Shown here one piece after another: positions 6,591-23,273 of a stretch of DNA of 64,000 nt (positions are counted from its first letter, which is position 1; every line of letters starts with the position of its first letter). The translations under genes were made by a program, and so were the position numbers. This DNA is from Candidatus Alistipes intestinipullorum (GTDB lineage Bacteria; Bacteroidota; Bacteroidia; Bacteroidales; Rikenellaceae). The DNA is taken from positions 1 to 64,000 of the forward strand of contig DXGO01000121.1 in NCBI GenBank assembly GCA_019113885.1. The letters are read 5' to 3'. The notes below the pieces were generated by a model. The model made no database searches, was not told where the DNA came from, and saw only the letters and a program-made list of their open reading frames with translations.

Positions 6591-7634
6591 CTATTCGATG
6601 TTTTCGCGGATCAGAATCTCGATCGGCGTGTGTTTGATGATCTGGTCGTGTTGTCCGTAGAGGATGTATTCCAGCACATACTTGATGCTCTGGTATCCCT
6701 GGAGGTCGGGGCGCTCGGAGAGCAGGAACGAAAGGTAGCCTTTCTTGAGGTATTCGATGTTCTTTTGTGTGACGCCGCAACCGATCACCTTGACGCCCGT
6801 AATGCCGTGGTGTTCGAGGTAGCTGGCGAAGATGTATGACCGGGAGTTAAACACTACGGCGCCGCCGATCTCGTTCTCTTCCGCGAAAAGCCGGTCGAAC
6901 TCCCGCCAGCTTCGCTCGATGTCCTGCGTGTAGTAGTTGGCGTAAAGGAAGCGGTTCTTGCTCGAAATAGTGTCGAAGTATTCGAAGAAACCCTCCTTGC
7001 GCACGACCGTCTGCAGCGAGCTCTCGTTGCCCGAGCGCACGGCGTGGAGGATGGCGATGTCCTTCTCCTCGCCGATGACGTCCGACAGGAGCTTGGCCTC
7101 GATGTATCCGAGTTTCCGGGAGTCGGGGCCGAAAAACGCCCGCTGGTTGCACGTCGGAATCAGCGTGTCGATAAAGACGTAGGGCGTGCCCTGCTCGTCG
7201 AGCCGGCGTGAGAACTGCACGGTCTCCTCGCGGAACGTCGGGCCGATGATCATCGCATCGCACGGGTATTCCAGCGCTTCGCTGTAAGCCTTCCGGCAGG
7301 AGTAGAGGTCGAACTGGTCGTAGTAGAAGATTTTGGTCTCGGTTTGGATTTTCGAGAAGTCGTAGAGCGCCTGGCGGATTCCCTTCTCGATCTGTTCCCA
7401 ATACTCTCCCGGCTGATAGCTCGGGAGCACGATCGCAAGGGTGATTTTGCGTTTTACGCCGATGGACGAAACCAGCAGATTGGGCCGGTAGAGGATTTTT
7501 TCGAGCACCTGCTCGACCTTCTGCCGGCTCTTTTCCGAGACGTCGCCGCGGTTGTGCAGGACGCGGTCGACCGTGCCGACCGACACCCCGGCCATGGCGG
7601 CGATGTCCTTGATCTTATAGCTTTTGCGATCCAT
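6591..7634 (-). CDS. LacI-family transcriptional regulator with periplasmic-binding-like sensor domain
   Basis: The 347-residue regulator has an N-terminal helix-turn-helix (KIKDIAAMAGVSVGTVDRVL, residues 7-26) and hinge region, then a sugar-sensing periplasmic-binding fold starting near ITLAIVLPSYQPGEYW. LacI-type repressors bind palindromes with a central CG and are released by a sugar ligand. Its position 45 bases downstream of nagB, and the CG-centred palindrome TGnTCGAnCA in both promoters of the neighbouring divergent locus, suggest that it controls amino-sugar use; this is inferred. The message may be leaderless, because a TATTTTCG box ends four bases before the ATG. Confidence 0.88.
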   Translation of the reverse strand: MDRKSYKIKDIAAMAGVSVGTVDRVLHNRGDVSEKSRQKVEQVLEKILYRPNLLVSSIGVKRKITLAIVLPSYQPGEYWEQIEKGIRQALYDFSKIQTETKIFYYDQFDLYSCRKAYSEALEYPCDAMIIGPTFREETVQFSRRLDEQGTPYVFIDTLIPTCNQRAFFGPDSRKLGYIEAKLLSDVIGEEKDIAILHAVRSGNESSLQTVVRKEGFFEYFDTISSKNRFLYANYYTQDIERSWREFDRLFAEENEIGGAVVFNSRSYIFASYLEHHGITGVKVIGCGVTQKNIEYLKKGYLSFLLSERPDLQGYQSIKYVLEYILYGQHDQIIKHTPIEILIRENIE

Positions 7635-7638
7635 ACGG

Positions 7639-7646
7639 CGAAAATA
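7639..7646 (-). promoter_or_regulatory. -7 box TATTTTCG upstream of the lacI-type gene
   Basis: One mismatch from TAnnTTTG. It ends four bases before the ATG at 7634, in the 44-base gap after nagB. Confidence 0.35.
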
Positions 7647-7678
7647 CTAAATATTTCCGATTCGCGGCGTATGTTTTA

Positions 7679-8455
7679 TCAAATTCTCAGCGCCGAAGCG
7701 GCTCCCAGGTCGAGAAAAAGGGTGGCGTCGTTGTGTGTGCGGAGAATCGATGCCGGGCATTGTTCCGTGATGGGGCCATAGAGCGTGTCGTGTACCGCTT
7801 TGGCCTTGCGCGCAAGAGGCACGATCCCCACTACGCAACGGCAGGACATCAGCGTCGGGATGGTCAGCGTCATTGCCTGTCGGGGCACGAGCGAGATGTC
7901 GGCAAATTCCCCGTCGTTGACCTGCTGCTGGCGGCACTGTTCGTCGAGGGTCGTGATCTTCACGATCTCGGGGTCGTCGAACCGTGCCTCATGGGGATCG
8001 TTGAAGGCGATATGGCCGTTTTCGCCGATGCCCAGCGAGACGATGTCCAGCGGGGCGGACTCGATCAGTTTCCCGTAGCGGAGGCACTCCTGCCGTCCCT
8101 CCTGGCCGCCCGAGTCCATCAGGTGCACCGCCTTGAAAGGTGCACGGTTGAAAATGGCATTCGACAGGAAGTTGCCGAATCGCTGGGGGGCGTCGGCCGG
8201 CAGCCCGATGTATTCGTCCATGTGGAACGCCTCCACGCGGCCGAATATCTCTTTCCCGGCGTTGCGGATACCTTCCAGAAACTCATCCTGCGAATGAGCC
8301 GCGGCGAACACGGCGCGTGCGGTGGGTTGTCGGTCGAGTATGGTCTTCAGCCGTTGCAGATAGTAGGATGAAGCGGCTTGCCCCATCTGTTGTCTGGTTT
8401 CGTAAATCAGTACGTGCAATTTGTCGACGTAGAAATCCTTGATCAGTCCATCCAT
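7679..8455 (-). CDS. nagB: Glucosamine-6-phosphate deaminase
   Basis: The 258-residue cytoplasmic enzyme converts glucosamine 6-phosphate to fructose 6-phosphate and ammonia, the last step of GlcNAc breakdown. Family motifs include AEAFHMDEYIGLP-like residues (VEAFHMDEYIGL), LGIGENGHIAFNDP with the catalytic Asp/His, and MTLTIPTLMS. An earlier ATG at 8527 would add 24 residues, but it lies upstream of the strong promoter at 8498-8528, so the ATG at 8455 is chosen. It is transcribed divergently from the nagP-nagA operon and is followed by the LacI-type gene. Confidence 0.92.
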   Translation of the reverse strand: MDGLIKDFYVDKLHVLIYETRQQMGQAASSYYLQRLKTILDRQPTARAVFAAAHSQDEFLEGIRNAGKEIFGRVEAFHMDEYIGLPADAPQRFGNFLSNAIFNRAPFKAVHLMDSGGQEGRQECLRYGKLIESAPLDIVSLGIGENGHIAFNDPHEARFDDPEIVKITTLDEQCRQQQVNDGEFADISLVPRQAMTLTIPTLMSCRCVVGIVPLARKAKAVHDTLYGPITEQCPASILRTHNDATLFLDLGAASALRI

Positions 8456-8487
8456 AGTTCTAAACGGGTCGGTAATGTCTATTTCCG

Positions 8488-8497
8488 TGTTCGAGCA
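8488..8497. promoter_or_regulatory. Candidate LacI-type operator, nagB side
   Basis: TGTTCGAGCA matches the palindrome TGnTCGAnCA with a central CG, as is usual for LacI-family operators. It covers the predicted start of the nagB transcript, immediately after the -7 box. A near-identical copy lies in the nagP leader at 8675. Confidence 0.5.
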
Positions 8498-8528
8498 CAA
8501 AAATATGGATTTTGGTTCTTTTTTCAAA
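8498..8528 (-). promoter_or_regulatory. nagB promoter (TTTG-N19-TATTTTTG)
   Basis: On the minus strand the -33 element TTTG (8525-8528) is spaced exactly 19 bases from the -7 box TATTTTTG (8498-8505). This is the textbook Bacteroidetes sigma-ABfr promoter and leaves a leader of about 37-40 bases before the nagB ATG. Confidence 0.75.
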
Positions 8529-8629
8529 AGAAAATCGAAACTATTTTTTAATATAAAGTAAATCAGTATTTTACAGTTTTAATGTCTTATGGCGAATTCT
8601 TTTGTCTGTTATTTTTTTGTCCATATCTG

Positions 8630-8659
8630 TTGCGCGAAATGATTTTTTTACTACCTTAG
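8630..8659 (+). promoter_or_regulatory. nagP operon promoter (TTG-N19-TACCTTAG)
   Basis: TTG at 8630-8632 lies 19 bases from TACCTTAG at 8652-8659, one mismatch from the -7 consensus. The predicted leader to the ATG at 8742 is about 75 bases and contains the second operator-like palindrome. Confidence 0.65.
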
Positions 8660-8674
8660 CGACTGGACAATCTG

Positions 8675-8684
8675 TGATCGAGCA
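8675..8684. promoter_or_regulatory. Candidate LacI-type operator, nagP side
   Basis: TGATCGAGCA fits TGnTCGAnCA and shares ten of eleven bases (TGnTCGAGCAC) with the copy in the nagB promoter. It lies about 15 bases past the -7 box, a position suited to repression. Confidence 0.5.
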
Positions 8685-8741
8685 CGGAATTTTGTCCGAA
8701 TTTGTGCTTCGCGAGAACCTTTGACTGAAACAAAAACCGAT

Positions 8742-10055
8742 ATGAACCCGTCCCTTTCCAAAAGGCAGTATTTTGTCTCCATGGCGATCATGGGGACGCT
8801 GTTCTTCTTCTTTGGCATGATCTCCTGGGTCAACTCCGTGTTGATTCCCTATTTTAAGGTGACGTGCGAATTGTCGCTCGCGCAGGCGTATCTGGTGGGT
8901 TTCGTATTCTATATCGCTTACCTGGTGATGGCGATCCCTTCGTCGATGATGCTCGATGCGGTCGGCTATAAGAAAGGTATCGGCTACGGGCTGTTCATCA
9001 TGGCGCTTGGGGCCCTCTGCTTCGTCCCGGCGGCATTGATTCGCTGCTATGCACTCTTCCTGACGGGGCTGTTCCTGCTCGGCATCGGACTGGCCGTGTT
9101 GCAGACCGCCGGAAATCCCTTTGTGACGATCATCGGCCCCATCGATGCCGCGGCCAAACGGATGTCGGTCATGGGCGTCTGCAACAAGTTGGCTGGAATC
9201 ATTGCCCCGCTGGCGCTTGGCTACCTGATCATTCGGCCGGGCGATGCCGCGCTGTTCGAGCAGGCCGAGGCCGGCGTTCAACTGATCGGCGGACAGGCCC
9301 GGGAGGTCGTGCTCGACGAGATGGCCCGGCGCGTCATCCTGCCCTATTCGGTGCTGGCACTCGTGCTGATCGCCTTCGGATTCTATGTAAGGCGCTCTCC
9401 GCTGCCCGACATCGTCGGGAAGGCAAAAACGACTTCCGGGGAGGATGGCCGCAAGAGCATCCTGAGTTATCCCTATCTGATTCTGGGTGTCGTGGCTATG
9501 GTTTGCCACCTGGGGACGCAGGCGCTTTGCATCAATACGCTGGTGACGTCGTCCGTGTCGCTCGGCACCGAGATCGCGCAGGCCAAATTGCTGCCCTCGC
9601 TGATCCTCTTCTCGACGTTCGTGGGGTTCGCCCTCGGCGCCCTGCTCATCCCCCGCGTGCTGTCGCAGCGTACGGCGTTGAAAATTGCCGCGGCGTTGAA
9701 TCTTGCGGCGTCGGTACTGGTGCTCTGTGTCGGCGGCAACCTCTCCCTCTTTGGGGTCGAGACCCACGCTGCGATGTGGGTGCTGATTTTCATGGGCATT
9801 CCCAATGCCTTCCTCTATTCGGGCATTTGGCCATTGGCGATTCACGACCTGGGCCGCCATACGGGGCTCGGGTCGGCGTGGTTGGTCATGGCCTTGGCGT
9901 CGAGCGGCCTCTTCCCGCTGATCTATGCCGGGGAGGTCTCCCGCCTGGGAAGCGTCCAGTCGGCCTATTGGTTCATGATCCCCTGTTTCGTATTCATTCT
10001 CTATTATGCGTTCCGGGGGTATAAGGTGGAATATTGGACCCGTCGGGGTCGGTAA
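8742..10055 (+). CDS. nagP: NagP-like MFS sugar transporter (FucP/GlcNAc type)
   Basis: The 437-residue protein has twelve predicted membrane helices and belongs to the FucP-type sugar:proton symporters. Its N-terminus (SMAIMGTLFFFFGMISWVNS) and AVLQTAGNPFVTIIGP motif are characteristic. In Bacteroidetes this subgroup includes the GlcNAc permease NagP. The open frame begins earlier with a TTG at 8721, but the ATG at 8742 with an A-rich upstream stretch is preferred. It is the first gene of the locus operon, and its stop codon directly abuts the nagA ATG, so GlcNAc uptake followed by intracellular deacetylation is the likely role. The exact sugar is inferred from context. Confidence 0.85.
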   Translation: MNPSLSKRQYFVSMAIMGTLFFFFGMISWVNSVLIPYFKVTCELSLAQAYLVGFVFYIAYLVMAIPSSMMLDAVGYKKGIGYGLFIMALGALCFVPAALIRCYALFLTGLFLLGIGLAVLQTAGNPFVTIIGPIDAAAKRMSVMGVCNKLAGIIAPLALGYLIIRPGDAALFEQAEAGVQLIGGQAREVVLDEMARRVILPYSVLALVLIAFGFYVRRSPLPDIVGKAKTTSGEDGRKSILSYPYLILGVVAMVCHLGTQALCINTLVTSSVSLGTEIAQAKLLPSLILFSTFVGFALGALLIPRVLSQRTALKIAAALNLAASVLVLCVGGNLSLFGVETHAAMWVLIFMGIPNAFLYSGIWPLAIHDLGRHTGLGSAWLVMALASSGLFPLIYAGEVSRLGSVQSAYWFMIPCFVFILYYAFRGYKVEYWTRRGR

Positions 10056-11237
10056 ATGGTTGCAACGATGAAACAGGCTATTGTGAACGGGCGAATCATC
10101 GCCCCCGGGAAAACCGGTTGCGGATATGTAGAATGGGACGGCGGTGTCATCACCGATGTCGGCTTCGGCGCGTACCGCGGCGAGGCGAAGTCGGTGGTGG
10201 ATGCCGGCGGCGAGTGGGTATCGCCCGGGTTTATCGACATCCACTTGCACGGTGCCGGCGGATACGATTTCATGGATTGCACGGTCGAAGCCTTCTTGGG
10301 GGCGGCGGAGATGGCCGCCCGCCACGGCGCCACGACGATCTTCCCCACGACGCTCGCCAGTACGAACGAAAACCTGTTCGAGGCATTCGATACCTTCCGG
10401 CAGGCCAAACTGCTCAACGAACGGGGTGCCGACATGCCCGGCCTGCACCTCGAAGGCCCCTATTTCGCCTACAACCAGCGCGGGGCACAGGACCCGCGCT
10501 ACCTGCGCGATCCTCGCCCCGAGGAGTACCTGGCCATTCTGGCGGCCAGCGACGATATCCGGCGCATGTCGCTTGCCCCGGAGCTCGACGGGGCGCTTGA
10601 GTTGGGGCGGGTATTGCGTGATCGGGGAATCCTGGCGTCAATCGCCCACTCCGATGCGCTGTTCGAGGAGGCCGTCGAGGCGTTCCGCAACGGATATACC
10701 CATGTGACGCATTTTTATTCATGCACGTCGTCAGTCGTGCGCCGCAATGCCTTCCGCTATGCCGGGATCGTCGAGGCGGCCTATTGGCTTGACGACATGA
10801 CGGTTGAGATCATCGCCGACGGCGTCCACCTGCCGAAGAGCCTGCTGCAGCTGGTCTACAAACTCAAAGGTGCCGACCGAACGGTACTTATCACCGATTC
10901 GATGCGTGCCGCCGGCATGCCCGAGGGCAATTACATCCTTGGGGCACGGGATGCCGGGATGCCGGTCGTCGTGGAGGATGGCGTGGCCAAACTGCCCGAC
11001 CGCAGTGCCTTTGCCGGCAGTGTGGCGACGGCCGACCGGGCCGTGCGGACGATGGCGCGCCTGGCGGAAATCCCGATTCCCGAGGCGGTGCGGATGATGA
11101 CGGCAACGCCGGCGCGCGTGATGCGCGTCGAGGACCGGAAGGGATCGCTTGCCGTCGGGAAAGATGCCGATATATTGATTTTCAATGATAACGTGGAGCT
11201 CCAATGCGTGATTCTCCGCGGCGAAAAACGTTTTTAA
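10056..11237 (+). CDS. nagA: N-acetylglucosamine-6-phosphate deacetylase
   Basis: The 393-residue amidohydrolase-superfamily enzyme removes the acetyl group from GlcNAc-6-phosphate to give glucosamine 6-phosphate for NagB. The metal-binding and catalytic motifs are FIDIHLHGAGGYDF, LHLEGPYF (metal Glu), THFYS and VLITDSMRAAGMPEG with the catalytic Asp. The C-terminus has the usual GSLAVGKDADILIFN. The ATG at 10056 directly follows the transporter stop; a second ATG at 10068 is an equally possible start. GlcNAc kinase, which would make the substrate, is not in the window. Confidence 0.93.
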   Translation: MVATMKQAIVNGRIIAPGKTGCGYVEWDGGVITDVGFGAYRGEAKSVVDAGGEWVSPGFIDIHLHGAGGYDFMDCTVEAFLGAAEMAARHGATTIFPTTLASTNENLFEAFDTFRQAKLLNERGADMPGLHLEGPYFAYNQRGAQDPRYLRDPRPEEYLAILAASDDIRRMSLAPELDGALELGRVLRDRGILASIAHSDALFEEAVEAFRNGYTHVTHFYSCTSSVVRRNAFRYAGIVEAAYWLDDMTVEIIADGVHLPKSLLQLVYKLKGADRTVLITDSMRAAGMPEGNYILGARDAGMPVVVEDGVAKLPDRSAFAGSVATADRAVRTMARLAEIPIPEAVRMMTATPARVMRVEDRKGSLAVGKDADILIFNDNVELQCVILRGEKRF

Positions 11238-11238
11238 G

Positions 11239-12468
11239 ATGTTACCGATGCATTCATTCGTCCGTATGTTGGCGGTATCTTTGCTCATGACCGGCTTCGG
11301 TTCTCCGACGTCGGCATGGGGCGGGGAGGTGCCGTCTTTGTCGTCGGGAGGGGAGGAAGCTGTTCCCGTCAATGTTTCTGTGCTCGATAACGGTTTCCCG
11401 ATTCGGGCCTTTTCGGTGTCGTTGCCTCCTGTGGATCAGGCGGATGTGTTTATGGACTTCGTGGCGAACGACCTGGCTCCCGCGGGGATCAATACGCTGG
11501 TGATCCGGGTGAACTGGGATTACGATTTCGAGTCGCATCCCGAATTGGCCAATCCAAACGGGTGGAACCGCCGTCAGGCGGCGAAACTGGCCGCACTCTG
11601 CCGCGAAAAGGGGATTACGCTCGTGCCGCTGATCAACCTGCTGGGACACCAGTCCTGGGCGGGCAAGGCCGGCAAGTTGCTGCAGGTCTATCCGCAGTTC
11701 GACGAGAAACCCCATGTGAAACTTCCGCAGGAGTATGTCTGGCCCAATCCCGACCGTCTTTACTGCAAGAGTTACTGCCCGAACCATCCGGATGTGCATG
11801 CGGTGGTTTTCGACTGTGTGGATGAAGTCGTTGCAGCGTTCGAGGCGAAGAACTTCCATGCCGGACTCGACGAGGTGTTCGACCTGGCCGATATCAATTG
11901 CCCGCGTTGCGGCGGGCTCGACCCCGCACGGGTCTTTGCCGACGAGGTGAACCGTATTGTCGCCCATCTCCGCCCGCAGGGCGTACGTCTGTGGATGTGG
12001 GCCGACCGCCTGCTCGACGGCCGTCCCGATGCCAGCGGGTTCGGCGAGTGGTCGGCGAGCCTGACCAATACGCATCGTGCGATCGACTGGATCGACCGCT
12101 CGGTCATGATGTGCGACTGGCACTACCGCGATGCGGAGCCCTCGGCCGTCTATTTCGCGATCAAGGGCTTCGACGTCGTTACGTGCGGCTGGGAGCGTCC
12201 CGATATTACGCAGCTGCAGCTCGACGACATGCTCCGTTTCCGGCAACATTCGTCGAAGCATCTGTCGAAACGTTTCAAGGGCTACATGCAGACAGTCTGG
12301 TCGAGCTTCGGACAGTTCCTGGACGAATACCGCAACGGCTCGGACAAGGAGCATTGTGCCGCCGGGAACTACCGCTATTTCAAATCCTATCTGCAGCGCT
12401 TCTCGGCATCCGGAGCGGAGACGTCCGGAGCCCCGGCGTCGGAATCGGCTCCGGAATTCGGAATCTGA
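11239..12468 (+). CDS. Exported GH20-like beta-hexosaminidase, short form
   Basis: The 409-residue protein has an N-terminal signal sequence and a TIM-barrel region resembling the catalytic domain of GH20 beta-N-acetylhexosaminidases. The catalytic Asp-Glu pair appears as FHAGLDE (Asp211, Glu212), where the usual motif is H-x-G-G-D-E. The N-terminal GH20b domain of classical enzymes is missing. A cysteine-rich stretch (DINCPRCGG) follows the active-site strand, as in related single-domain enzymes. It probably releases terminal GlcNAc in the periplasm for NagP import. It lies between nagA and susC in one operon. Family membership is good; the exact substrate is unknown. Confidence 0.72.
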   Translation: MLPMHSFVRMLAVSLLMTGFGSPTSAWGGEVPSLSSGGEEAVPVNVSVLDNGFPIRAFSVSLPPVDQADVFMDFVANDLAPAGINTLVIRVNWDYDFESHPELANPNGWNRRQAAKLAALCREKGITLVPLINLLGHQSWAGKAGKLLQVYPQFDEKPHVKLPQEYVWPNPDRLYCKSYCPNHPDVHAVVFDCVDEVVAAFEAKNFHAGLDEVFDLADINCPRCGGLDPARVFADEVNRIVAHLRPQGVRLWMWADRLLDGRPDASGFGEWSASLTNTHRAIDWIDRSVMMCDWHYRDAEPSAVYFAIKGFDVVTCGWERPDITQLQLDDMLRFRQHSSKHLSKRFKGYMQTVWSSFGQFLDEYRNGSDKEHCAAGNYRYFKSYLQRFSASGAETSGAPASESAPEFGI

Positions 12469-12498: not shown

Positions 12499-15400
12499 AT
12501 GCTGAAACTATTACAATCGAAGATTTGCGGCAGATCGGTGCGCTTGCTGTCCGTATTCGCTCTGTCCGCCCTCTGCTGTTTCACGGCAATGGCACAGCAG
12601 AATGTCACCGTTACGGGTGTCGTGATGAATGAGACGAAGCAACCGATCGTCGGCGCATCGGTCATCCAGGAGGGGACCACCCGCGGTACGACTACGGACT
12701 CGAAAGGCCGTTTCTCGTTGAGCGTGACGAATCCGAATGCCACCTTGCAGGTATCGTTCATCGGAATGAAGTCCGAAAACGTGCCGTTGGCCGGGAAGAC
12801 ATCCGTGGATGTCGTGCTCACGGAGGAGAACGTGGCGGTCGAAGAGGTGGTGGTGACGGCTCTCGGCATCAAGCGCGAGGCCAAGGCGCTCGGTTATGCC
12901 GTCTCGTCGGTCGAGGCCGACGACCTGACTGCCGGCCGGGAGGCGAACATCATGCAGGCCATGATCGGAAAGGTGGCCGGTGTCGACATCTCCACGACCA
13001 CGGCCGGCCCGACGGGTTCTTCGCGCGTGCTGATCCGCGGTAACTCCCAACTCTCGGGCTCGAACCTCCCGCTCTACGTCATCGACGGCATGCCGGTCGA
13101 CAACTCGCAGCTGCAGGGCGCCGATGGCAAATGGGGCGGTTCGGGATACGACTTCGGCGACGTCATGTCGTCGATCAACCCCGAGGACATCGAAAACGTC
13201 TCGGTGCTCAAAGGCCCTTCGGCTTCGGCCCTCTATGGCTCGATGGCCTCGAACGGCGTGGTCATGATTACCACCAAATCCGGGTCGGCCCGCAAGAAGG
13301 GGCTCGGCATCGAGGTATCGTCGAACATCAGCTTTACGACCCTGCTCTCGAAGTTCGACGACTACCAGCGTGTCTACGGCCAGGGCCGCAACGGCTCCAT
13401 TCCTCTGACCGACTCCGACGGCCGCGGTACGACGCAGGTCGCATGGGGTGGTAAGCTCGATCCCAACATTATGATCCAGATCTACAACGGTGAGTGGAAA
13501 CCCTACGGCAACGTGAACAACAACGTGCTGTCGTTCTTCGATACGGGCTTCACGGCACAGAATTCAGTCTCGGTCTCCAATGCCACCGAAAAGACCTCGT
13601 TCCGTTTTGCCGTGACCGACATGCGCAACAAGGATATCGTCCCCAAGTCGGAATTCAACCGTACGAACATCACCATGCGCGGTTCGACGAAACTGGGTAA
13701 GACGGTCTCGGTCGAGGCGTCGGCCTCGTACATCTATGAGGATGTGAAGAACCGTCCGGCCCTGACCGATAACGCCAGCAACATCGGCAATGCGCTGATC
13801 GGTATTGCGCCGAACTTCGACCAGCGCTGGCTGGCCGACTCCTACAAGGATGAGAACGGCAACTACTATCAGTGGAACGGCAGCGACTACCGTTTCAACC
13901 CCTATTGGGTTATCAACGAGATGCGCAACGAGTCGAACCGGTCGCGTCTGATGGGTACGGCCCGCATCTCGTGGGACATCACGCCGTGGCTGAAGCTGGC
14001 CGGGCGCGGCGGACTGGATACCTACAATTTCCGGGCAACGACCTTTTCCCCGATTTCGACGCCCCGGCAGGTGGAGGGCGCCATCAACGAACGGGTGATG
14101 AACGTAACGCAAACCAACCTCGAAGCGACGTTGACCTTCGCGAAGAAATTCGGCGATTTCGACATTAACGCCTTTGTGGGCGCGAGCCTTTTGCGCAACA
14201 AGAACGAGCAGTTTACGACCGAGGGCCTGAAGCAGGTGCTGCCCGGTGTCGACGACATCAACGCCTTCGAGCGTATCTCCACCACCCACGGACTCTACAA
14301 CAAGGAGGTACGGTCGATGTTCGGTTCCGTGAGCTTCGGCTACAAGGGCCTCGCCTACATCGACGCGACGATCCGCAACGACGTCTCCTCGACGCTCAGC
14401 CCCGAGAACCGTTCCTACTGGTATCCGTCGGTTTCGGGCAGCCTGATCTTTTCGGACCTGTTCGACCACGGCGACTGGTTCTCGTTCGGTAAGGTGCGTG
14501 CGTCGTGGGCCAATGTCGGCGGCGATACGGATCCCTACCAGTTGTACCTCGATTTCGGAACCAAAACCTACAAGCTCAACGGCCAGTCGCTCGGCGAGGT
14601 GGCAAGCACCGTGGTCCCCTATTACGACCTCAAGCCTACAGCCAGCTATTCGATGGAGGTGGGTCTCGATGTACGCTTCTTCCAGAGCCGTCTGGGAATC
14701 GACCTGACGCTCTATCAGCAGACGACGAAGGATCAGATCATGAGCTTGCCAATCTCCTCCGGGTCGGGATTCTCCCGCGCCCTGATCAACGCCGGCAAGA
14801 TCCGCAACCGCGGTATCGAGTTGGCCGTCTCGGGCACCCCGATCAAGACGCGTTCGTTCCAGTGGGAGACGACGTTCACCTATGCGACCAACGAAAACGA
14901 GGTGCTTGAGTTGCATCCCGACGTTCCGTCGTACGAGCTGACCGCGGCGCGTTGGGCCAACGCCTATATCTATGCCATGGAGGGCGAGCCCTATGGTGTG
15001 ATCGTGGGCCAGGCAATCGCCCGGACGCCCGAGGGGCGCGTGATCGTCAACGATCAAGGCCTTCCGACCTTCGATACCGATGTCTCCGTGCTGGGCAAGG
15101 GCACCTATGACCATACGCTCGGATGGTCGCACAACATTACCTGGAAGAACCTGAACCTGCGGCTGTTGTTCGATGCCAAATTCGGCGCCGACATGTATTC
15201 GATGTCAATGATGCAGTCGTACTACAACGGTACGGCTACCGAGACCCTCAAGGGCCGTGACGCCTGGTACCGTTCGGAACAGGCGAAGGTGGCGGCTGGC
15301 TCTCCGGCCGACTGGAAAGCCACGGGCGGCTACCTTGTCGACGGCGTCCGCAAGGTGGATGACGGGCAGGGTGGCGTGACCTATGTCGAGAACGATATCT

Positions 15401-15708
15401 ATGTCAATCCGCAGGCCTACTGGCAGTCGTTCCAGGACGTTTCGCCCGAACCGTTCATCATCGACGCCTCCTACATCAAGTTCCGCGAATTGGCCTTCTC
15501 GTTCGACTTCCCGCAGCAGTGGCTGCGCAAGACCCCGCTGGCCGGCGTTTCGCTCACGGCTTTTGCGCGCAATCTCTGCATCCTCTACACCAATGTGAAG
15601 AATATCGATCCCGAGTCGTCCTATTACAACGGAAACGGACAGGGGTTCGAATACGGATCGTTGCCTTCGCGCCGCACCTTCGGCTTCGGTGTCAAAGTTA
15701 AATTCTAA
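12499..15708 (+). CDS. SusC/RagA-type TonB-dependent outer-membrane transporter
   Basis: The 1069-residue protein has a signal peptide (cleavage near residue 33), a carboxypeptidase-regulatory-like beta-sandwich (VTGVVMNETKQPIVGASV onwards, residues 36-115), a plug domain ending near NGVVMITTKSG, and a C-terminal 22-strand barrel ending in the aromatic FGFGVKVKF. SusC proteins form energised pores that import oligosaccharides captured by a SusD lid. It follows the GH20-like gene by 30 bases and precedes susD by 8, so it is clearly in the same operon. The genes around it suggest a GlcNAc-containing oligosaccharide. Confidence 0.95.
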   Translation: MLKLLQSKICGRSVRLLSVFALSALCCFTAMAQQNVTVTGVVMNETKQPIVGASVIQEGTTRGTTTDSKGRFSLSVTNPNATLQVSFIGMKSENVPLAGKTSVDVVLTEENVAVEEVVVTALGIKREAKALGYAVSSVEADDLTAGREANIMQAMIGKVAGVDISTTTAGPTGSSRVLIRGNSQLSGSNLPLYVIDGMPVDNSQLQGADGKWGGSGYDFGDVMSSINPEDIENVSVLKGPSASALYGSMASNGVVMITTKSGSARKKGLGIEVSSNISFTTLLSKFDDYQRVYGQGRNGSIPLTDSDGRGTTQVAWGGKLDPNIMIQIYNGEWKPYGNVNNNVLSFFDTGFTAQNSVSVSNATEKTSFRFAVTDMRNKDIVPKSEFNRTNITMRGSTKLGKTVSVEASASYIYEDVKNRPALTDNASNIGNALIGIAPNFDQRWLADSYKDENGNYYQWNGSDYRFNPYWVINEMRNESNRSRLMGTARISWDITPWLKLAGRGGLDTYNFRATTFSPISTPRQVEGAINERVMNVTQTNLEATLTFAKKFGDFDINAFVGASLLRNKNEQFTTEGLKQVLPGVDDINAFERISTTHGLYNKEVRSMFGSVSFGYKGLAYIDATIRNDVSSTLSPENRSYWYPSVSGSLIFSDLFDHGDWFSFGKVRASWANVGGDTDPYQLYLDFGTKTYKLNGQSLGEVASTVVPYYDLKPTASYSMEVGLDVRFFQSRLGIDLTLYQQTTKDQIMSLPISSGSGFSRALINAGKIRNRGIELAVSGTPIKTRSFQWETTFTYATNENEVLELHPDVPSYELTAARWANAYIYAMEGEPYGVIVGQAIARTPEGRVIVNDQGLPTFDTDVSVLGKGTYDHTLGWSHNITWKNLNLRLLFDAKFGADMYSMSMMQSYYNGTATETLKGRDAWYRSEQAKVAAGSPADWKATGGYLVDGVRKVDDGQGGVTYVENDIYVNPQAYWQSFQDVSPEPFIIDASYIKFRELAFSFDFPQQWLRKTPLAGVSLTAFARNLCILYTNVKNIDPESSYYNGNGQGFEYGSLPSRRTFGFGVKVKF

Positions 15709-15716
15709 AGATTTGA

Positions 15717-17591
15717 ATGGTTATGAAACGAATTTCGATATATCTTGCGTCGCTTGCCGCACTTGCGGTCTGCGGATGCAGCGATTTGACAGAGTTGAAC
15801 ATCAATCCGACCAAGGCCAATGGCTCCATCGATCCGTCGTTGCTGGTTCCCACGATCCAGATGTCCCATTCGCTGGGGCGTCAGAATGCCGCGCGTTTCT
15901 TCTCTTTCCCCGGGGCATGGGTCAACCACTGGAGCGGCTCGTGGGGCAACGTGGAGTATGGCGGCAAGGGTATCCGCAACAATGCCTACAGCGCCCGTTT
16001 GTGGCAGGACCTGTTCTACCCCGAGGCGGTGAAGAACATCGTGGCACTCGAGAATATCTCGGACAACGATCCCGAACTGGTCAATTACAGCGCGATCGCC
16101 AAGGTGCTGCGCGTGGAGACTTTCCTCAAATTGACCGACTGTTACGGTGACGTTCCCTATTTCGAAGGGGGACAGGGATACTACCAGTCGATCTTCTCGC
16201 CGCGCTATGACAGGCAGGAGGATATCTACAATGACTTTTTCAAGCGGCTGGACGAGGCTCTCGCCCAGTTCGACGCCTCGAAACCCTCGCCCACGACGGA
16301 CTGCTATTTTGGCGGCGATGTGGAGAAGTGGCGCCGTTTTGCGGCCTCGCTCAAGCTGCGTGTGGCGATGCGCCTGATCAAGGTGAAACCCGAATTGGCC
16401 CAGGAGAAGGCGAAGGAGGCCTTTTTGTCGGGCGTGATGACGTCGAATGCCGACATCGCGGCCGTGAAACATGCCGAGGATTACGAGACGCTCGGCGCCG
16501 GTAACGGATATGCCGACATCATGTTGCAGGTGACCAGCACCCCCGGACTCGGCATCACGCAGTACAAGATGACCACGGAGTTCTTCAAGGCGCTCTGTGC
16601 GATGGACCCCCAGCAGTATGCAACGCCTCCCTATCGGCGTTATCTGGCACTCGACCCCCGTTTGCTGCTGATTGCGGGCGTGTATGTGACCACTTCGAAT
16701 GCCGGTCTTCCGGCCTGGGCCGATGCGGTCGACGTGACGGAGCTGATGCGTAAGTTCAATGCCGGCTATGTAAGCAACCAGGGTCCGGCCGATCTGGCCA
16801 AGGAGGTCGACGGATACATCAACATCGGTGGTTACCTCACCATTCCGGCGCAGGATTTCAACTATGGCGGCGGTATCCAGTATCCTGGAGAGAATGGCTA
16901 CGAGGGCGAACCGAAGAACCGGAGCGTCTGGGCTCAGGGAATCACCTCCACGATGGTCGACGGTGCTACGTGGATGACCGAAGAGGAGCGTGAAGAGTTG
17001 AAGAAGGCGATCGGCAGCTACACGGTGCCGCATGCCATGTACCGTCTTGCCCCCTCGCGGACGATTATGGCCGTGGACACTCCGTGGATACACATGAGCT
17101 ATGCCGAGACCCAGTTCCTGCTGGCCGAAACCACGGTCCGCGGATGGGGCATCGACTCCGAGACGGCCGCCACGCGTTTTGCAAAGGGGTATGAAGCCGC
17201 AGTGAAGCAGTTCTCGCTCTTCGGCGTGAGCGATGCCGACATGCCTACCGATGCCGAGATTCAGGAGTACCTGAACACCTACCTGCTTCCCGAAATCGAG
17301 GCGGGTGGCACGCGGGCCCTCGAGGAGATCAACAAGCAGATATGGATTCTGCATTTCATGGACCCGATCGAGGCGTGGTCGAACCTGCGCCGTACGAACG
17401 GCATGCCGACGGCCTATTGCAAATGGTACAACCGTTATCCTGCGGAGAACCAGTCCAATGGCTTGTGCCCGATGCGTTTGACCTATCCGGTCGAGGAGCA
17501 GACCAAGAATGCGGCCAACTGGAAAGAGGCTGTCGACCGCATGGGTGGTGCGGATGATTGGACGACGCCCGTATGGTGGGATGTGCAGTAA
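15717..17591 (+). CDS. SusD/RagB-family surface glycan-binding lipoprotein (SusD-like_2)
   Basis: The 624-residue lipoprotein has a lipobox at LAVCGC (acylated Cys21) and the SusD-like_2 signature LTELNINPTKANGSIDPSLL, followed by helix-rich TPR-like repeats. It forms the lid over the SusC pore and binds the incoming glycan at the cell surface. The ATG at 15717 is used; a second in-frame ATG two codons later would leave the signal sequence intact. The next gene starts immediately after its stop codon. Confidence 0.93.
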   Translation: MVMKRISIYLASLAALAVCGCSDLTELNINPTKANGSIDPSLLVPTIQMSHSLGRQNAARFFSFPGAWVNHWSGSWGNVEYGGKGIRNNAYSARLWQDLFYPEAVKNIVALENISDNDPELVNYSAIAKVLRVETFLKLTDCYGDVPYFEGGQGYYQSIFSPRYDRQEDIYNDFFKRLDEALAQFDASKPSPTTDCYFGGDVEKWRRFAASLKLRVAMRLIKVKPELAQEKAKEAFLSGVMTSNADIAAVKHAEDYETLGAGNGYADIMLQVTSTPGLGITQYKMTTEFFKALCAMDPQQYATPPYRRYLALDPRLLLIAGVYVTTSNAGLPAWADAVDVTELMRKFNAGYVSNQGPADLAKEVDGYINIGGYLTIPAQDFNYGGGIQYPGENGYEGEPKNRSVWAQGITSTMVDGATWMTEEEREELKKAIGSYTVPHAMYRLAPSRTIMAVDTPWIHMSYAETQFLLAETTVRGWGIDSETAATRFAKGYEAAVKQFSLFGVSDADMPTDAEIQEYLNTYLLPEIEAGGTRALEEINKQIWILHFMDPIEAWSNLRRTNGMPTAYCKWYNRYPAENQSNGLCPMRLTYPVEEQTKNAANWKEAVDRMGGADDWTTPVWWDVQ

Positions 17592-18029: not shown

Positions 18030-19178
18030 ATGAAACAAGAACGATTGTTGTCCCTCGATGTCATGCGCGGCATGACGATCGCCGCCATGATTCTGGTGAA
18101 CAACCCCGCCGTGTGGGGCAAGGCCTACGCGCCGTTGCAGCATGCCTTCTGGCATGGCATGACCCCGACGGACCTGATCTATCCGTTTTTCGTCTTCATC
18201 ATGGGCGTTTCGGCCTGGTTCTCGCTTTCGTCCCGTTGCAAGGGGCCCGATTCGGGCGTTTCACGTCACATCGTGCGGCGGAGCGCGGTGATCTTTGCTC
18301 TGGGCCTGCTGTTGCAGGAGATCAGCTATTTCGGATACGGTACGGCGAACTACCTGTCGGGTGCCGTTGCCGAGGGTACGACATGGGCCGAGGCGGTGTT
18401 CCCGTGGCGGACGTTCCGGATCCTCGGGGTGTTGCAGGGGTTGGCGTTGGCCTATCTGCTGGGGGCCTTGTTGTTGGTACGGTTGCGCTTTCGGCACATG
18501 ACCCTGGCGGCCGCCGTGCTGTTGCTGGTGTACCTGGCCGTGCTGCAGTGGGGAAATGGCTATGCCCTCTCGGCGGACAACATCATCGCGCGGGTCGATC
18601 GGGCGGTGCTGGGCGAAGCCCATCTTTACCGGGAGTGGCTGCCCGACGGCTCCCGCCTGGCCTTCGAGCCCGAAGGGTTGCTGAGCACGTTGCCCCGCGT
18701 GGCGCAATTCCTGCTGGGATGCGCCGCAGGCCGGCTCCTGCGCCTGCAGACGGAGGTCCCGCAACGGGTTGCCAGGTTGTTCGTCTTCGGCTCGATCCTG
18801 CTCTTTGCCGGGCTGTTGCTGCAGTACGGCGATCCGCTCAACAAGAAGATCTGGAGCAGCTCCTTCGCGTTGACCACGTCGGGATTTGCCTCACTGCTCC
18901 TGGGCGTGCTGTGCTGGGGAATCGACTGGCGGAAGAAAACACGCTGGACGGGATTTTTCAGGGTCTTCGGGGTCAACCCGCTCTTCCTCTACATGGCCGC
19001 CTGGATACTCTCGGTTATCCTGGGTGTCTTTTCGGTCAAACAATGGTTTTACGGGACGCTGATCGACCCCTGGTTGGGCGATGCCTCGGGATCGCTGGTC
19101 TATTCGCTGTGCTTCGTGCTGCTTGTCTGGGGGCTCGGAGTCGTGCTGTATCGTCGGAAAATATATGTCAAAATCTGA
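18030..19178 (+). CDS. Heparan-alpha-glucosaminide N-acetyltransferase-like membrane protein (NagX/DUF5009 type), copy 1
   Basis: The 382-residue protein has about ten membrane helices and the HGSNAT/YeiB-type N-terminus: LSLDVMRGMTIAAMILVNNP, then HAFWHGMTPTDLIYPFFVF and IMG. His38 corresponds to the conserved lumenal histidine of human HGSNAT, which moves acetyl groups from cytosolic acetyl-CoA across the membrane onto glucosamine ends. A similar role here, re-acetylating glucosamine in the periplasm, is inferred from family and context and is not proven. The next gene, a GH20-like enzyme, starts 7 bases on. Confidence 0.8.
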   Translation: MKQERLLSLDVMRGMTIAAMILVNNPAVWGKAYAPLQHAFWHGMTPTDLIYPFFVFIMGVSAWFSLSSRCKGPDSGVSRHIVRRSAVIFALGLLLQEISYFGYGTANYLSGAVAEGTTWAEAVFPWRTFRILGVLQGLALAYLLGALLLVRLRFRHMTLAAAVLLLVYLAVLQWGNGYALSADNIIARVDRAVLGEAHLYREWLPDGSRLAFEPEGLLSTLPRVAQFLLGCAAGRLLRLQTEVPQRVARLFVFGSILLFAGLLLQYGDPLNKKIWSSSFALTTSGFASLLLGVLCWGIDWRKKTRWTGFFRVFGVNPLFLYMAAWILSVILGVFSVKQWFYGTLIDPWLGDASGSLVYSLCFVLLVWGLGVVLYRRKIYVKI

Positions 19179-19185
19179 ACCTGTC

Positions 19186-20742
19186 ATGAAAAAACTTTTC
19201 CTGAATGTGGCCCTCGTCCTTCTGGCGGTCGTTGCCGACGGACGCTGCTGTGCGGCCCGGACGAAAGAGTTTCCCGTCAGGGCCTTCCACCTCGATTTCC
19301 GCACCGAGGTGATGACCCTCGATGCCATGCGGTCGCTGGTTGACCGCCTCTCCGCACGGGGAATCAACACCCTGGTTATGGAGTGGGAGGCATCGTTCCC
19401 GTTCGACCGGCATGCGGTCCTGTCGAAGAATTCGGCCTTCACGCGCGAGGAGGTGTCCGCGTTCATCGATTATTGCGGGCAACGCGGCATCGAGGTCATC
19501 CCGTTGCAGAACTGTTTCGGCCATTGCGAATACATCCTGCGAAACGAACGTTACCGAAATCTGCGCGAGAGTGTCAAGGACCCTTCGCAGGTCTGCCCTT
19601 CGAAGATCGGGGAGGCGGTGGCGTGCTTCTCGGAGATTTTCGCCGAGGTCGCGGCGCTCCATCCTTCGGACTATTTCCACATCGGGGCCGATGAAACGTA
19701 CCTGCTCGGAGAGTGTGCGGCGTGCCGTGCGAAAGCCGACCGTGAAGGGAAGTCCCGGTTGTTTGTCGATTATGTCAAGGCGATGTGCGACATTGTCCGC
19801 GATCTGGGCAAGACGCCGATGATCTGGGCCGACATCATCCTCAAACACCCCGAGGCGCTCGACGAATTGCCCGATGACCTGATCGTCGTGGACTGGAACT
19901 ATGGCTGGGAGCCGGATCGTTTCGGCAACCTGTCCAATCTGCTATCCCGGGACGTGAAGTTGTGGGGGGCCTCGGCCATGCGGTCGGCACCGGATAACAT
20001 CTATCTCACGCAGTGGAAAAAACATTTCGACAATCTGGCGGTTTATGTGGAGTTTGCCCGCGAGCATGACTATGCGGGAATGATCGAGACCTCCTGGTCG
20101 ACAAGCGGAACATATGGCTACCTGCTCGACGACGGATACGAAATCCTTGAGATGCAGCCGATCCGTCTGGTTTATCCCATGTCGGCCTTCGAGGTGCTCG
20201 AAGCGGCCTGTTGCGAGGCCTTTACGGTAGACGCGCCGTTCGATCCCGAGCCTTTTGTCCGGCGTTATGCCTGCGAGGAACTGGGGCTCGACGATGCCGG
20301 GGCCGACGTCCTGTGGCGCTATTTCACCATGCCGCAGGAGCGTGTGACGGTGACCGCCGCCGGGGCGAAGGATGCTCTCGGCAGGGAGTTGTCCGAAGTG
20401 CTCGACGAGTGCCTGCGCATGCGCGGGGAGTTGTCCCGAATCCACCCGCGCAAACATGCGGATCAGGTGGCGCACTACCTGCTGATGCTGGACCTGCGGA
20501 TCGAGCACCTGCGTTTCCGGGAGATTGAATCCCGCTGTCAGGCCGCGGATTTCGACCGTTCACGGGCTGCGGGCCTGGCTGCGGAGTTGCGCGATCTGCT
20601 TGGGGCCTCCGAGGCGTTGGACCGCAGGTTCTGCCGGCTCAACGAAGGGTACCTGAAACCGCAGGAGATCGAGTACATCAATACGATGCGTACGATGAAG
20701 ATGAAAGCGCTCCATGACCGGTTGACCTCCATTGCGCGGTGA
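19186..20742 (+). CDS. Exported GH20-family beta-N-acetylhexosaminidase-like protein
   Basis: The 518-residue protein has a signal peptide (residues 1-24), then a GH20-type TIM barrel with LSARGINTLVMEWE and the catalytic YFHIGADE (Asp169, Glu170). A helical C-terminal domain of about 170 residues contains a basic/acidic stretch but no recognised carbohydrate module. The family removes terminal beta-GlcNAc or GalNAc by substrate-assisted catalysis. The two GH20-like proteins of this operon differ in length and motif, so they probably act on different linkages. The ATG at 19186 gives the better signal sequence than the in-frame ATG at 19165. Confidence 0.8.
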   Translation: MKKLFLNVALVLLAVVADGRCCAARTKEFPVRAFHLDFRTEVMTLDAMRSLVDRLSARGINTLVMEWEASFPFDRHAVLSKNSAFTREEVSAFIDYCGQRGIEVIPLQNCFGHCEYILRNERYRNLRESVKDPSQVCPSKIGEAVACFSEIFAEVAALHPSDYFHIGADETYLLGECAACRAKADREGKSRLFVDYVKAMCDIVRDLGKTPMIWADIILKHPEALDELPDDLIVVDWNYGWEPDRFGNLSNLLSRDVKLWGASAMRSAPDNIYLTQWKKHFDNLAVYVEFAREHDYAGMIETSWSTSGTYGYLLDDGYEILEMQPIRLVYPMSAFEVLEAACCEAFTVDAPFDPEPFVRRYACEELGLDDAGADVLWRYFTMPQERVTVTAAGAKDALGRELSEVLDECLRMRGELSRIHPRKHADQVAHYLLMLDLRIEHLRFREIESRCQAADFDRSRAAGLAAELRDLLGASEALDRRFCRLNEGYLKPQEIEYINTMRTMKMKALHDRLTSIAR

Positions 20743-20819
20743 CGGCGGCGCCTGGGCGCTTTCGAAAATATATGTCAGAAAGAATATGGAAATCAAATAA
20801 TTATTTAAATTTACGGATT

Positions 20820-22208
20820 ATGAAACAAGTTTTGATGCAAACCCGAATGTTGTTGCTTGGGATGCTCCTCTTCTCGCTGGGCAGTTGCAGTGAGGACAAA
20901 ACGGAGGAGGTCGCCGCCCCGAAGGTGGAATTTACCGTGCCGGACGACACGATAACGGTGACGGTCGATGAACAGGTGACGTTCGGCGCCGTTGTCGAAA
21001 ATGACGTGGAGGCTCAGTATATCTGGTATGTGAACGGCGTGCAGATATCGTCGGAGGCCACGGTGACCCATACGTTCTCCCAAGTGGGGTATTACACGGT
21101 GCGTTGCGAGGTTTATAACGATGGCGGCCGTGTCGCCCGGGTCTACAAAGTGCAGGTTAACGGCATTCCTCTCGCCGTCGAATTCTCCGTGCCGGGCGAG
21201 ACGATCTCGTGCGATCAGGGCGACGAGGTGCGTGTTTCGGTGACGGTCACCGGCGGTGACAAGGCGGTACAGCACTCCTGGAGCATTGACGGTACGGTGG
21301 TTTCGGAGGGCGCCGAATTTGTCCACACCTTCATGGATGCAGGAAGCTTTACACTTACCTATTCGGGCGTGAATGCCGATAAGATGACGGCTACGAAGAG
21401 CTGGGAAGTACAGGTTGCCGAGGTCGAGCTGCCGCTGACCATCGAGTTCACGCCGGCTCCCGGTGCGATCGACTGCCATAGCGGCGACGAGGTGGTGATC
21501 GCCACTTCGGTGCTGGGCGGTGCCGACGGATTGGTTCACGAGTGGAAGGTCGATGGAAACGTCGTTTCGGATGCGGCCGAATTCCGGCAGACCTTCTCCG
21601 ATCTGGGCGAGTATGTGATCTCCTACGTGGGTGTGAACGCCAAGCAGGAGCGTGTCGAGAAAAGCTGGTCGCTGCTGGTGAGCCACCTGGTCGAGGACCT
21701 GGAGGATGCCGTCGATCTGCCGTCGATCCTGCTTGACCAGAATGCGTCGCTCTTCGTGGTGGAAAACCCCCATGTGACTGCGGTCAACGGCAGTGCCAAG
21801 GTGCTTAAGAGCGACATGTCCTCGTCGAGCCACTCCACGTCCGGACGTTTCTTCCTCGACCTGTCCGGTATGACCGACCTCGCATCGTACAGTGCCGTAC
21901 GTGTGAAGGTATGGATCGGCACGAACAGCTATGTGCCCTATCTGCAACTCCTGGATCTTGCAATCAACCGCCGCCCGACGACGCTCAATGGCCAGACCTA
22001 CTCCACGGAGGAAGAATGGCGTCAGATCGTGCGGACGAACGAGTGGAACATCCTCGTTTACGACCTTCCGGAGAGCTACGGCAGGGAGAACCTCGACGGG
22101 GTTGTAACGCTCGACTTCCGCCCGATGTCGGACTTCGTCGGAAACAATGCCGCGGTTGAGAATAACGACCGGATTCTGTACTATGACGATTTCGAATTCC
22201 TGAAATAA
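20820..22208 (+). CDS. PKD-repeat surface lipoprotein with C-terminal beta-domain
   Basis: The 462-residue lipoprotein has a lipobox at LGSCS (Cys23). Three successive PKD/Ig-like repeats of about 85 residues follow, starting near VEFTVPDDTITVT, VEFSVPGETISC and IEFTPAPGAIDC. Each carries a W-x-x-x/V-D-G core and a final (F/V)-x-D-x-G-x-(F/Y) strand. The last 190 residues form a separate beta-rich domain with SGRFFLDLSGMTDLASYSAV, suggestive of a carbohydrate-binding jelly roll. It is probably a surface glycan-binding protein delivering substrate to the adjacent GH18 enzyme, whose gene starts 10 bases on. Confidence 0.78.
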   Translation: MKQVLMQTRMLLLGMLLFSLGSCSEDKTEEVAAPKVEFTVPDDTITVTVDEQVTFGAVVENDVEAQYIWYVNGVQISSEATVTHTFSQVGYYTVRCEVYNDGGRVARVYKVQVNGIPLAVEFSVPGETISCDQGDEVRVSVTVTGGDKAVQHSWSIDGTVVSEGAEFVHTFMDAGSFTLTYSGVNADKMTATKSWEVQVAEVELPLTIEFTPAPGAIDCHSGDEVVIATSVLGGADGLVHEWKVDGNVVSDAAEFRQTFSDLGEYVISYVGVNAKQERVEKSWSLLVSHLVEDLEDAVDLPSILLDQNASLFVVENPHVTAVNGSAKVLKSDMSSSSHSTSGRFFLDLSGMTDLASYSAVRVKVWIGTNSYVPYLQLLDLAINRRPTTLNGQTYSTEEEWRQIVRTNEWNILVYDLPESYGRENLDGVVTLDFRPMSDFVGNNAAVENNDRILYYDDFEFLK

Positions 22209-22218
22209 CCGACCGACT

Positions 22219-23262
22219 ATGAAAAGACCGTTTTTTACCGGGGTGTTGCTCCCCATGACCATGATGATGCTTGCATCGTGCTCCTCATGCTCCACGTCGG
22301 ACGATGACCCGACTCCGGCGCCGCCCAAATCCAAATGTATCGTGGCCGGTTACTCCAATGCCGGGGCCCTTTCGTCGGTTTCTCCGGCCGACTACCCGGA
22401 CATGAAGTACCCGACGCGGGTCTACTGTTTCGGTATTTCGCCCGATACCGAGGGCGCCTGGTTTGTCGACACCCAGCGGGAGCAGCGTCAGAATGCTGTC
22501 CGGGCGGCGATGAACTCCTCGCAGGAGGCCTTCCTGGTGGTCGGGGGCGGAGCCACGGCCGGGAACATGTACCGTATGGGAACGGACCCGGCCAAGCGTG
22601 CGGCTTTCGCCGAGGCGCTGGTCAAATACGCGCATGAGCGGGATTTCGACGGTATCGACGTCGACTGGGAGACTGACTGGTCGGAGGAGCCTTTCCTGCA
22701 CGTCCCGGAGGACGACATGGTGGCCCTGCTGAGTGAGATCCGCGAGCGGATGTCCGAACTCCCGGCCGGCACGAAGCTCCGGCAACTGACGGCGGCGCTT
22801 TCGTCCGGGACGCTCGGACAGTCGATGGGCGGCCGGATCGTCGACTACGTCGATCACATCAACGTGATGATCTACGACACCTACGGAACCGAGGAGGAGG
22901 GCTATCCGCATGCTCCGATGCGCATTGTGGAGTCTACGCTGGCAGGGTATGCTGCGGAAGGGGTTCCCAACTCGAAAATCATCGTCGGGGTTCCCTTCTA
23001 CGGCGGGAACAAACAGGCGACGCCCGTAGCGACGCAGTCTTACCGTACGCTTTGTGCAATGGCCGGCGGAGCGATTACCGCGTCGTCGAACTCCTACGCC
23101 GGGTATGCGTTCAACGGAGTCGACCTGATGAAGGAGAAGACGCAATACGTGCTGGATCACGGGTATGCCGGCATCGTCATCTGGGAACTCTCGCAGGACC
23201 TTCCGTATAAGGAACCGCTGTCGCTGTTGCGGGCGATTAAAAGCGTGGCCGACGAACAATAA
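22219..23262 (+). CDS. GH18-family endo-acting glycosidase lipoprotein (chitinase or endo-beta-N-acetylglucosaminidase)
   Basis: The 347-residue lipoprotein has a lipobox at LASCS (Cys21) and a GH18 TIM barrel with the catalytic DFDGIDVDWE (Glu151 the acid), MIYDTYG and VGVPFYGG. GH18 enzymes cut the beta-1,4 bond between GlcNAc residues in chitin or in the chitobiose core of N-glycans. No carbohydrate-binding module is fused; the neighbouring PKD protein could supply that function. The surface location and the operon imply that it makes the oligosaccharides taken up by SusCD. Sequence alone does not separate chitinase from endoglycosidase specificity. Confidence 0.87.
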   Translation: MKRPFFTGVLLPMTMMMLASCSSCSTSDDDPTPAPPKSKCIVAGYSNAGALSSVSPADYPDMKYPTRVYCFGISPDTEGAWFVDTQREQRQNAVRAAMNSSQEAFLVVGGGATAGNMYRMGTDPAKRAAFAEALVKYAHERDFDGIDVDWETDWSEEPFLHVPEDDMVALLSEIRERMSELPAGTKLRQLTAALSSGTLGQSMGGRIVDYVDHINVMIYDTYGTEEEGYPHAPMRIVESTLAGYAAEGVPNSKIIVGVPFYGGNKQATPVATQSYRTLCAMAGGAITASSNSYAGYAFNGVDLMKEKTQYVLDHGYAGIVIWELSQDLPYKEPLSLLRAIKSVADEQ

Positions 23263-23273
23263 AATCCAGGACC

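Follow-up and report, generated by a model that had tools for sequence, protein, structure and literature searches.

Proteobacteria have a LacI-type NagR. In Bacteroides, a related member of the order, the ROK-family protein NanR (BT0433) has been predicted to regulate the genes for sialic acid and GlcNAc (PMC3878776). In Bacillus, NagR is a GntR/HutC protein and represses nagP and nagAB (PMC6141813). In addition, local LacI-family regulons of sugar catabolism have been described. Their regulators combine an HTH with a sugar-binding domain, the site is an even CG palindrome near the start of the adjacent catabolic gene, and autoregulation is probable; most LacI regulators are autoregulated, with even palindromes with a central CG as their sites (PMC4052901). 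Furthermore, a recognition code of LacI proteins has been reported, in which residue AA-55 is the strongest correlate of base NT-2, an Arg at AA-20 is paired with G at NT-6, and a central CG accompanies a hydrophobic AA-54 (PMC2978694).

In this study, we analysed the nag locus of Candidatus Alistipes intestinipullorum in a stretch of 64,000 nucleotides (hereafter the window). Judging from sequence, the two palindromes between nagB and nagP very probably serve as operators for the LacI-family regulator whose gene lies at 6591-7634; this regulator would be a local autoregulating repressor of amino-sugar genes. This is a local LacI regulon of a known kind, and the regulon itself is previously undescribed in the literature that we searched. 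It agrees with the regulons of PMC4052901 in the domains of the regulator, the form of the palindrome, the location of the site and the probable autoregulation. However, the species, the targets and the palindrome (CCGTGnTCGAnCACGG) differ from those regulons and were not found in the literature searched, and no LacI-type GlcNAc regulator of Alistipes was found there.

The regulator shares with NanR the control of amino-sugar catabolism. However, NanR belongs to the ROK family, and the regulator adjacent to nagB has LacI and Peripla_BP_4 domains only, which makes this a non-orthologous replacement. A domain search of the window regulator found neither a GntR HTH nor a UTRA domain, and with the Bacillus NagR, a protein of another family, the regulated function is all that the two systems have in common. 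The code of PMC2978694 is shared in its three correlations (NT-2 with AA-55, Arg AA-20 with G NT-6, hydrophobic AA-54 with CG). However, it was derived from TVSR-type helices, whereas the proteins here are TVDR-type proteins of Bacteroidales, three of which are without the canonical residues in the hinge. The outcome is a concrete regulon with a predicted operator for amino-sugar use in Alistipes, distinct from the ROK control predicted in Bacteroides.

The nag locus and its intergenic palindromes

The regulator gene (6591-7634, minus strand) encodes a protein of 347 aa. It has an N-terminal LacI HTH domain (PF00356, 59.1 bits against a cut-off of 27) and a periplasmic-binding-protein-like effector domain (Peripla_BP_4, PF13407, 96.1 bits against 35.1; solved relative 3gbv). 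On the same strand, the nagB gene (7679-8455) encodes a NagB-like protein of 258 aa from the glucosamine-6-phosphate deaminase family (PF01182), and the structurally solved proteins related to it are GlcN6P deaminases. The gap between the two genes is 44 bases (7635-7678), one fewer than the sequence-only reading had counted, and they probably form one operon.

On the plus strand follow the genes for a NagP-like MFS GlcNAc transporter (8742-10055; NF046060, 294.9 bits, below the cut-off of 625), the GlcNAc-6-phosphate deacetylase NagA (10056-11237; TIGR00221, 264.6 bits, above the cut-off of 225.65), a GH20 family protein (11239-12468; PF00728, 30.8 bits) and a pair of SusC-like (12499-15708) and SusD-like (15717-17591) proteins assigned by Pfam. 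The plus-strand genes at 18030-24452 (NagX/HGSNAT-like, GH20, PKD protein, GH18 and DUF5009; Pfam/NCBIfam) are probably the remainder of the nagP-led locus, as judged from strand and spacing only. As to the earlier names, nagA alone passes its NCBIfam equivalog cut-off; nagP and nagB fall below theirs, and "nagB" is a divergent NagB-like gene (TIGR00502, 120.8 bits against 236.9).

The divergent nagB/nagP intergenic region is 286 bp long and AT-rich, and it includes the palindromes GTGTTCGAGCAC (8487-8498) and GTGATCGAGCAC (8674-8685). The two 10-mers first noticed here lie exactly where they had been placed, and they are better given as these 12-mers in a 16-bp frame, CCGTG-N6-CACGG. The predicted nagB-side operator (8485-8500, minus strand) reads TTGTG-CTCGAA-CACGG, with the core GTGCTCGAACAC at 8498-8487, and the predicted nagP-side operator (8672-8687, plus strand) reads CTGTG-ATCGAG-CACGG, with the core GTGATCGAGCAC. 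Both sites are even and CG-centred, in agreement with the claim that they have the form of LacI-family operators. In addition, Arg at AA-20 and G at NT-6 go together in the window regulator and its predicted site.

Promoters of the Bacteroidetes type have TAnnTTTG at -7 and TTTG near -33 (PMC7366714), and both nag promoters fit the arrangement TTG-19-bp-TAnnTT. For nagB, the predicted -7 box is TATTTTTG (8498-8505, minus strand), a TAnnTTTG match 19 bp downstream of the predicted -33 element TTTTG (8525-8529, minus strand), which has counterparts in relatives. For nagP, the predicted -7 box is TACCTTAG (8652-8659, plus strand; TACCTTTA in the relatives G109 and G112), and the predicted -33 element TGTTG (8628-8632, plus strand) stands 19 bp before it and is kept in both relatives. 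It had been claimed that both palindromes lie just downstream of the predicted starts. This holds for the nagP-side site, which begins some 14 bases beyond the -7 box, but not for the nagB-side site, which abuts its -7 box and therefore spans the predicted +1.

One explanation for the two palindromes is that they are chance matches, common in a GC-rich genome through TCGA-rich codons. The 10-mer TGNTCGANCA is indeed over-represented in the window (9 observed against 1.4 expected). The seven copies elsewhere in the window are apparently all in genes (long open frames), and TCGA-rich codon pairs are probably the source of the excess. Because of these matches in open frames, the operator question could not be decided from sequence alone, and the 10-mer by itself was dropped as genome-wide evidence since its matches in genes are too numerous. 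However, only 0.004 copies of TGNTCGANCA are expected in the AT-rich intergenic region; at least two copies appeared in 1 of 20,000 dinucleotide shuffles of the region, and two 12-mers in none. At least two CG-centred palindromes of the same shape, whatever their sequence, appeared in 4.5% of the shuffles, and by this measure the two palindromes by themselves are borderline. Elsewhere in the same genome there are five other copies of the 12-mer GTGnTCGAnCAC, every one within an ORF, and we therefore claim no further targets of the regulon in this genome.

Regulator orthologs and loci without the regulator

Orthologs of the regulator (at least 50% identity) were sought in 180 genomes of the genus and in other members of the family. 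They were found in seven of the 180 genomes and in two relatives outside the genus but within the family. The search of orthologous promoters, which the sequence-only reading had set as the test that could refute it, did not refute it: at all nine loci the divergent promoter next to the regulator contains the palindrome, although these loci are related and do not represent nine independent events.

Four of the nine species (the own genome, G109, G112 and G213) have the same nag layout, with the palindromes in the same position. The nagP-side site has an aligned counterpart in the three relatives, with one half degenerate in G213. On the nagB side, GTGCTCGAACACGG is the only fully invariant block of 14 bp (14/14) in the four-species intergenic alignment, in which 26% of the columns are invariant. 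Chance is refuted by this conservation together with the agreement of the nine loci, and we regard its probability as negligible.

Two details of these loci may be recorded here. In G213, the GH20 gene between nagA and susC was not detected, and an operator-like sequence, CCGTTATCGAGCACGG, is found just before susC (L173:6002-6017). In G112, nagP was matched as two adjacent pieces in different frames (L172:11639-12914; 12598/12600), reflecting a frameshift or else an error in the assembly.

The other five orthologs (G209, G065, G115, G242 and G243) are in a different locus, Nramp transporter-GH88-PL22-nagB. It includes GH88, a PL22-like protein, an Nramp-family transporter where the contig reaches that far and, in some genomes, a NagB-like gene after these. 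These loci keep the same palindrome in their divergent promoter. The NagB-like gene (57-60%) of G115, G065 and G243 belongs to the Nramp-side operon or lies further downstream on the same strand; in G209 and G242 the contig or stretch ends, so that the gene is not seen near every regulator. The NagB-like gene is the only gene besides the regulator that is present in both locus types. The same regulator type on two unrelated glycan loci points to a shared hexosamine signal. In addition, an Nramp-family membrane protein replaces the sugar transporter under the same operator (L072:4481-5716, L175:13893-15131, L221:14216-15451), and the cargo of this protein may be a sugar or uronate product rather than a metal.

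The palindrome and the regulator strictly co-occur. The 16-mer GTGNTCGANCACGGAA is present in 9 of the 180 genus genomes. Five of them are among the seven regulator-bearing genomes, always with the 16-mer in the promoter, and four are among the 173 others, always with it in ORFs (Fisher p 1.7e-6, a value that ignores relatedness and so overstates the evidence). The two regulator-bearing genomes without the exact 16-mer have one-base variants instead. Furthermore, 19 nag loci without the regulator had no promoter palindrome, and TGNTCGANCA was found there in long open frames only.

These results bear on a second explanation, namely that the palindromes bind some other factor, such as a Crp-like or ROK regulator, and that the LacI gene is a mere neighbour. 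Such factors are predicted in Bacteroides, where the ROK protein NanR is assigned to GlcNAc and sialic acid and a Crp-like palindrome of 22 bp is common to several sugar operons (PMC3878776). However, the Crp-like consensus (wwwTATGTTnTAnAACATAwww) is unlike our palindromes, and the palindrome tracks the LacI regulator across loci with different enzyme genes and is absent without it. With the two observations of the next section that point the same way, we consider another factor very improbable.

Hinge residues and the palindrome centre

Three further orthologs, from Bacteroides oleiciplenus (L070), a Prevotella MAG (L071 = G671) and G662, are placed within the motif clade by the tree. They keep the TVDR core of the recognition helix, but the hinge of the window clade, PNLxVSSIGVKR, is replaced by unrelated and mutually divergent residues. 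In each of them an exact CCGTG-N6-CACGG precedes the start of the regulator by 63-66 nt; it is the sole such match within the 14-20 kb that were searched, and its centre is AA, AT or TT, not CG. Half-sites and spacing are unchanged, and the change is confined to the part that the hinge reads in known LacI structures (PMC2978694). Furthermore, all nine CG-centred orthologs have Arg at AA-20 (the R of TVDR) and a hydrophobic AA-54, as is known for LacI proteins; AA-54 is Ile in all nine, and Lys or Val in the three without CG.

The regulator is tied to the palindrome because the centre of the palindrome changed exactly where the hinge segment diverged. From the sequences, this parallel change, which counts as one evolutionary event, is hard to explain unless the regulator binds the site, and it speaks against another factor. 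The self-contained circuit of palindromes and adjacent LacI-type regulator, which the sequence-only reading had thought likely, is thus supported from several sides: the nine loci, the loci without the regulator, the invariant nagB-side site and the joint change of hinge and centre. Whether reading of the central CG requires the hinge helix is a question for which the hinge-degenerate lineage offers a natural test. An order-wide search for more orthologs of this kind gave no species beyond the three.

Near the paralogs of the regulator, TGNTCGANCA was found in genes only. A looser search picked up sister palindromes, GTGnnCGnnCAC, ahead of the paralogs' own genes, which again argues against another factor. 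For 80 distinct TVDR-type regulators, GTGnnCGnnCAC was sought within about 450 nt upstream, and in those that have it the base beside CG follows AA-55: Ala goes with G (17 G/G, 2 mixed) and Ser with A (12 A/A, 2 T/A, 1 T/T). In the window clade, Gly at AA-55 goes with T beside CG in 9/9 operon promoters. In a tree with the hinge masked, the pattern of AA-55 and NT-2 needs only about three label changes. Thus, it is consistent with a code and is not proof of one, and the counting of these cases as dozens of independent events was rejected.

We tentatively suggest, at slightly less than even confidence, a TVDR-type code in Bacteroidales. The helix would read the constant GTG/CAC and the hinge would read the centre, with AA-55 setting the base beside CG (Ala-G, Ser-A, Gly-T). 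One lineage of the nag clade would have lost the canonical hinge residues and the central CG and kept the half-sites and the spacing, a natural dissection of DNA reading by LacI proteins. With such an operator series, the targets of many uncharacterised LacI proteins of Bacteroidales would be predictable from one hinge residue.

A paralogous LacI regulator in the own genome (L189, G000:C50) has a perfect palindrome, TGTGTGCGCACACA, about 92-101 nt upstream, with a centre unlike the one in the nag operator. Most distinct relatives of L189 with Ala at residue 55 have the identical 14-mer upstream as well.

Proposed repression and inducer

The regulator would bind directly to the two predicted sites, with one dimer at each site when the inducer is absent. 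The dimer across the +1 of the nagB-regulator operon would block that promoter, and the dimer just downstream of the +1 of the nagP-nagA-GH20-susCD operon would block the other. The regulator, probably co-transcribed with nagB, would also control its own expression. Repression rather than activation is suggested by the position of the sites and by the habit of the family.

A third explanation is that the regulator binds the sites but is an activator or a dual regulator, or loops between them, and is not a simple repressor. There are two sites in each intergenic region, and their distance is 187, 186, 187 and about 189 bp in the window, L171, L172 and L173 (the last being G213), although the length of the region ranges from 284 to 332 bp; looping could be the cause of this near-constant distance. 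However, the sites are on or just downstream of the predicted +1 in both nag promoters, which is the usual position for a repressor. Thus, we consider this third explanation unlikely, though less so than another factor, and prefer simple repression.

For the proposed repressor, the inducer is a guess. Release from the sites would be caused by an amino-sugar metabolite, and the likeliest candidate is a hexosamine phosphate that the NagB-like enzyme makes or uses. We chose the substrate of this enzyme or a close metabolite because no enzyme gene other than the NagB-like one is common to both locus types. From its sequence, the substrate of the NagB-like protein may be other than GlcN6P. The protein contains the motif GIGENGHIAFND, its score is well under the nagB equivalog cut-off, and a second NagB homolog (32%) is present elsewhere in the own genome.
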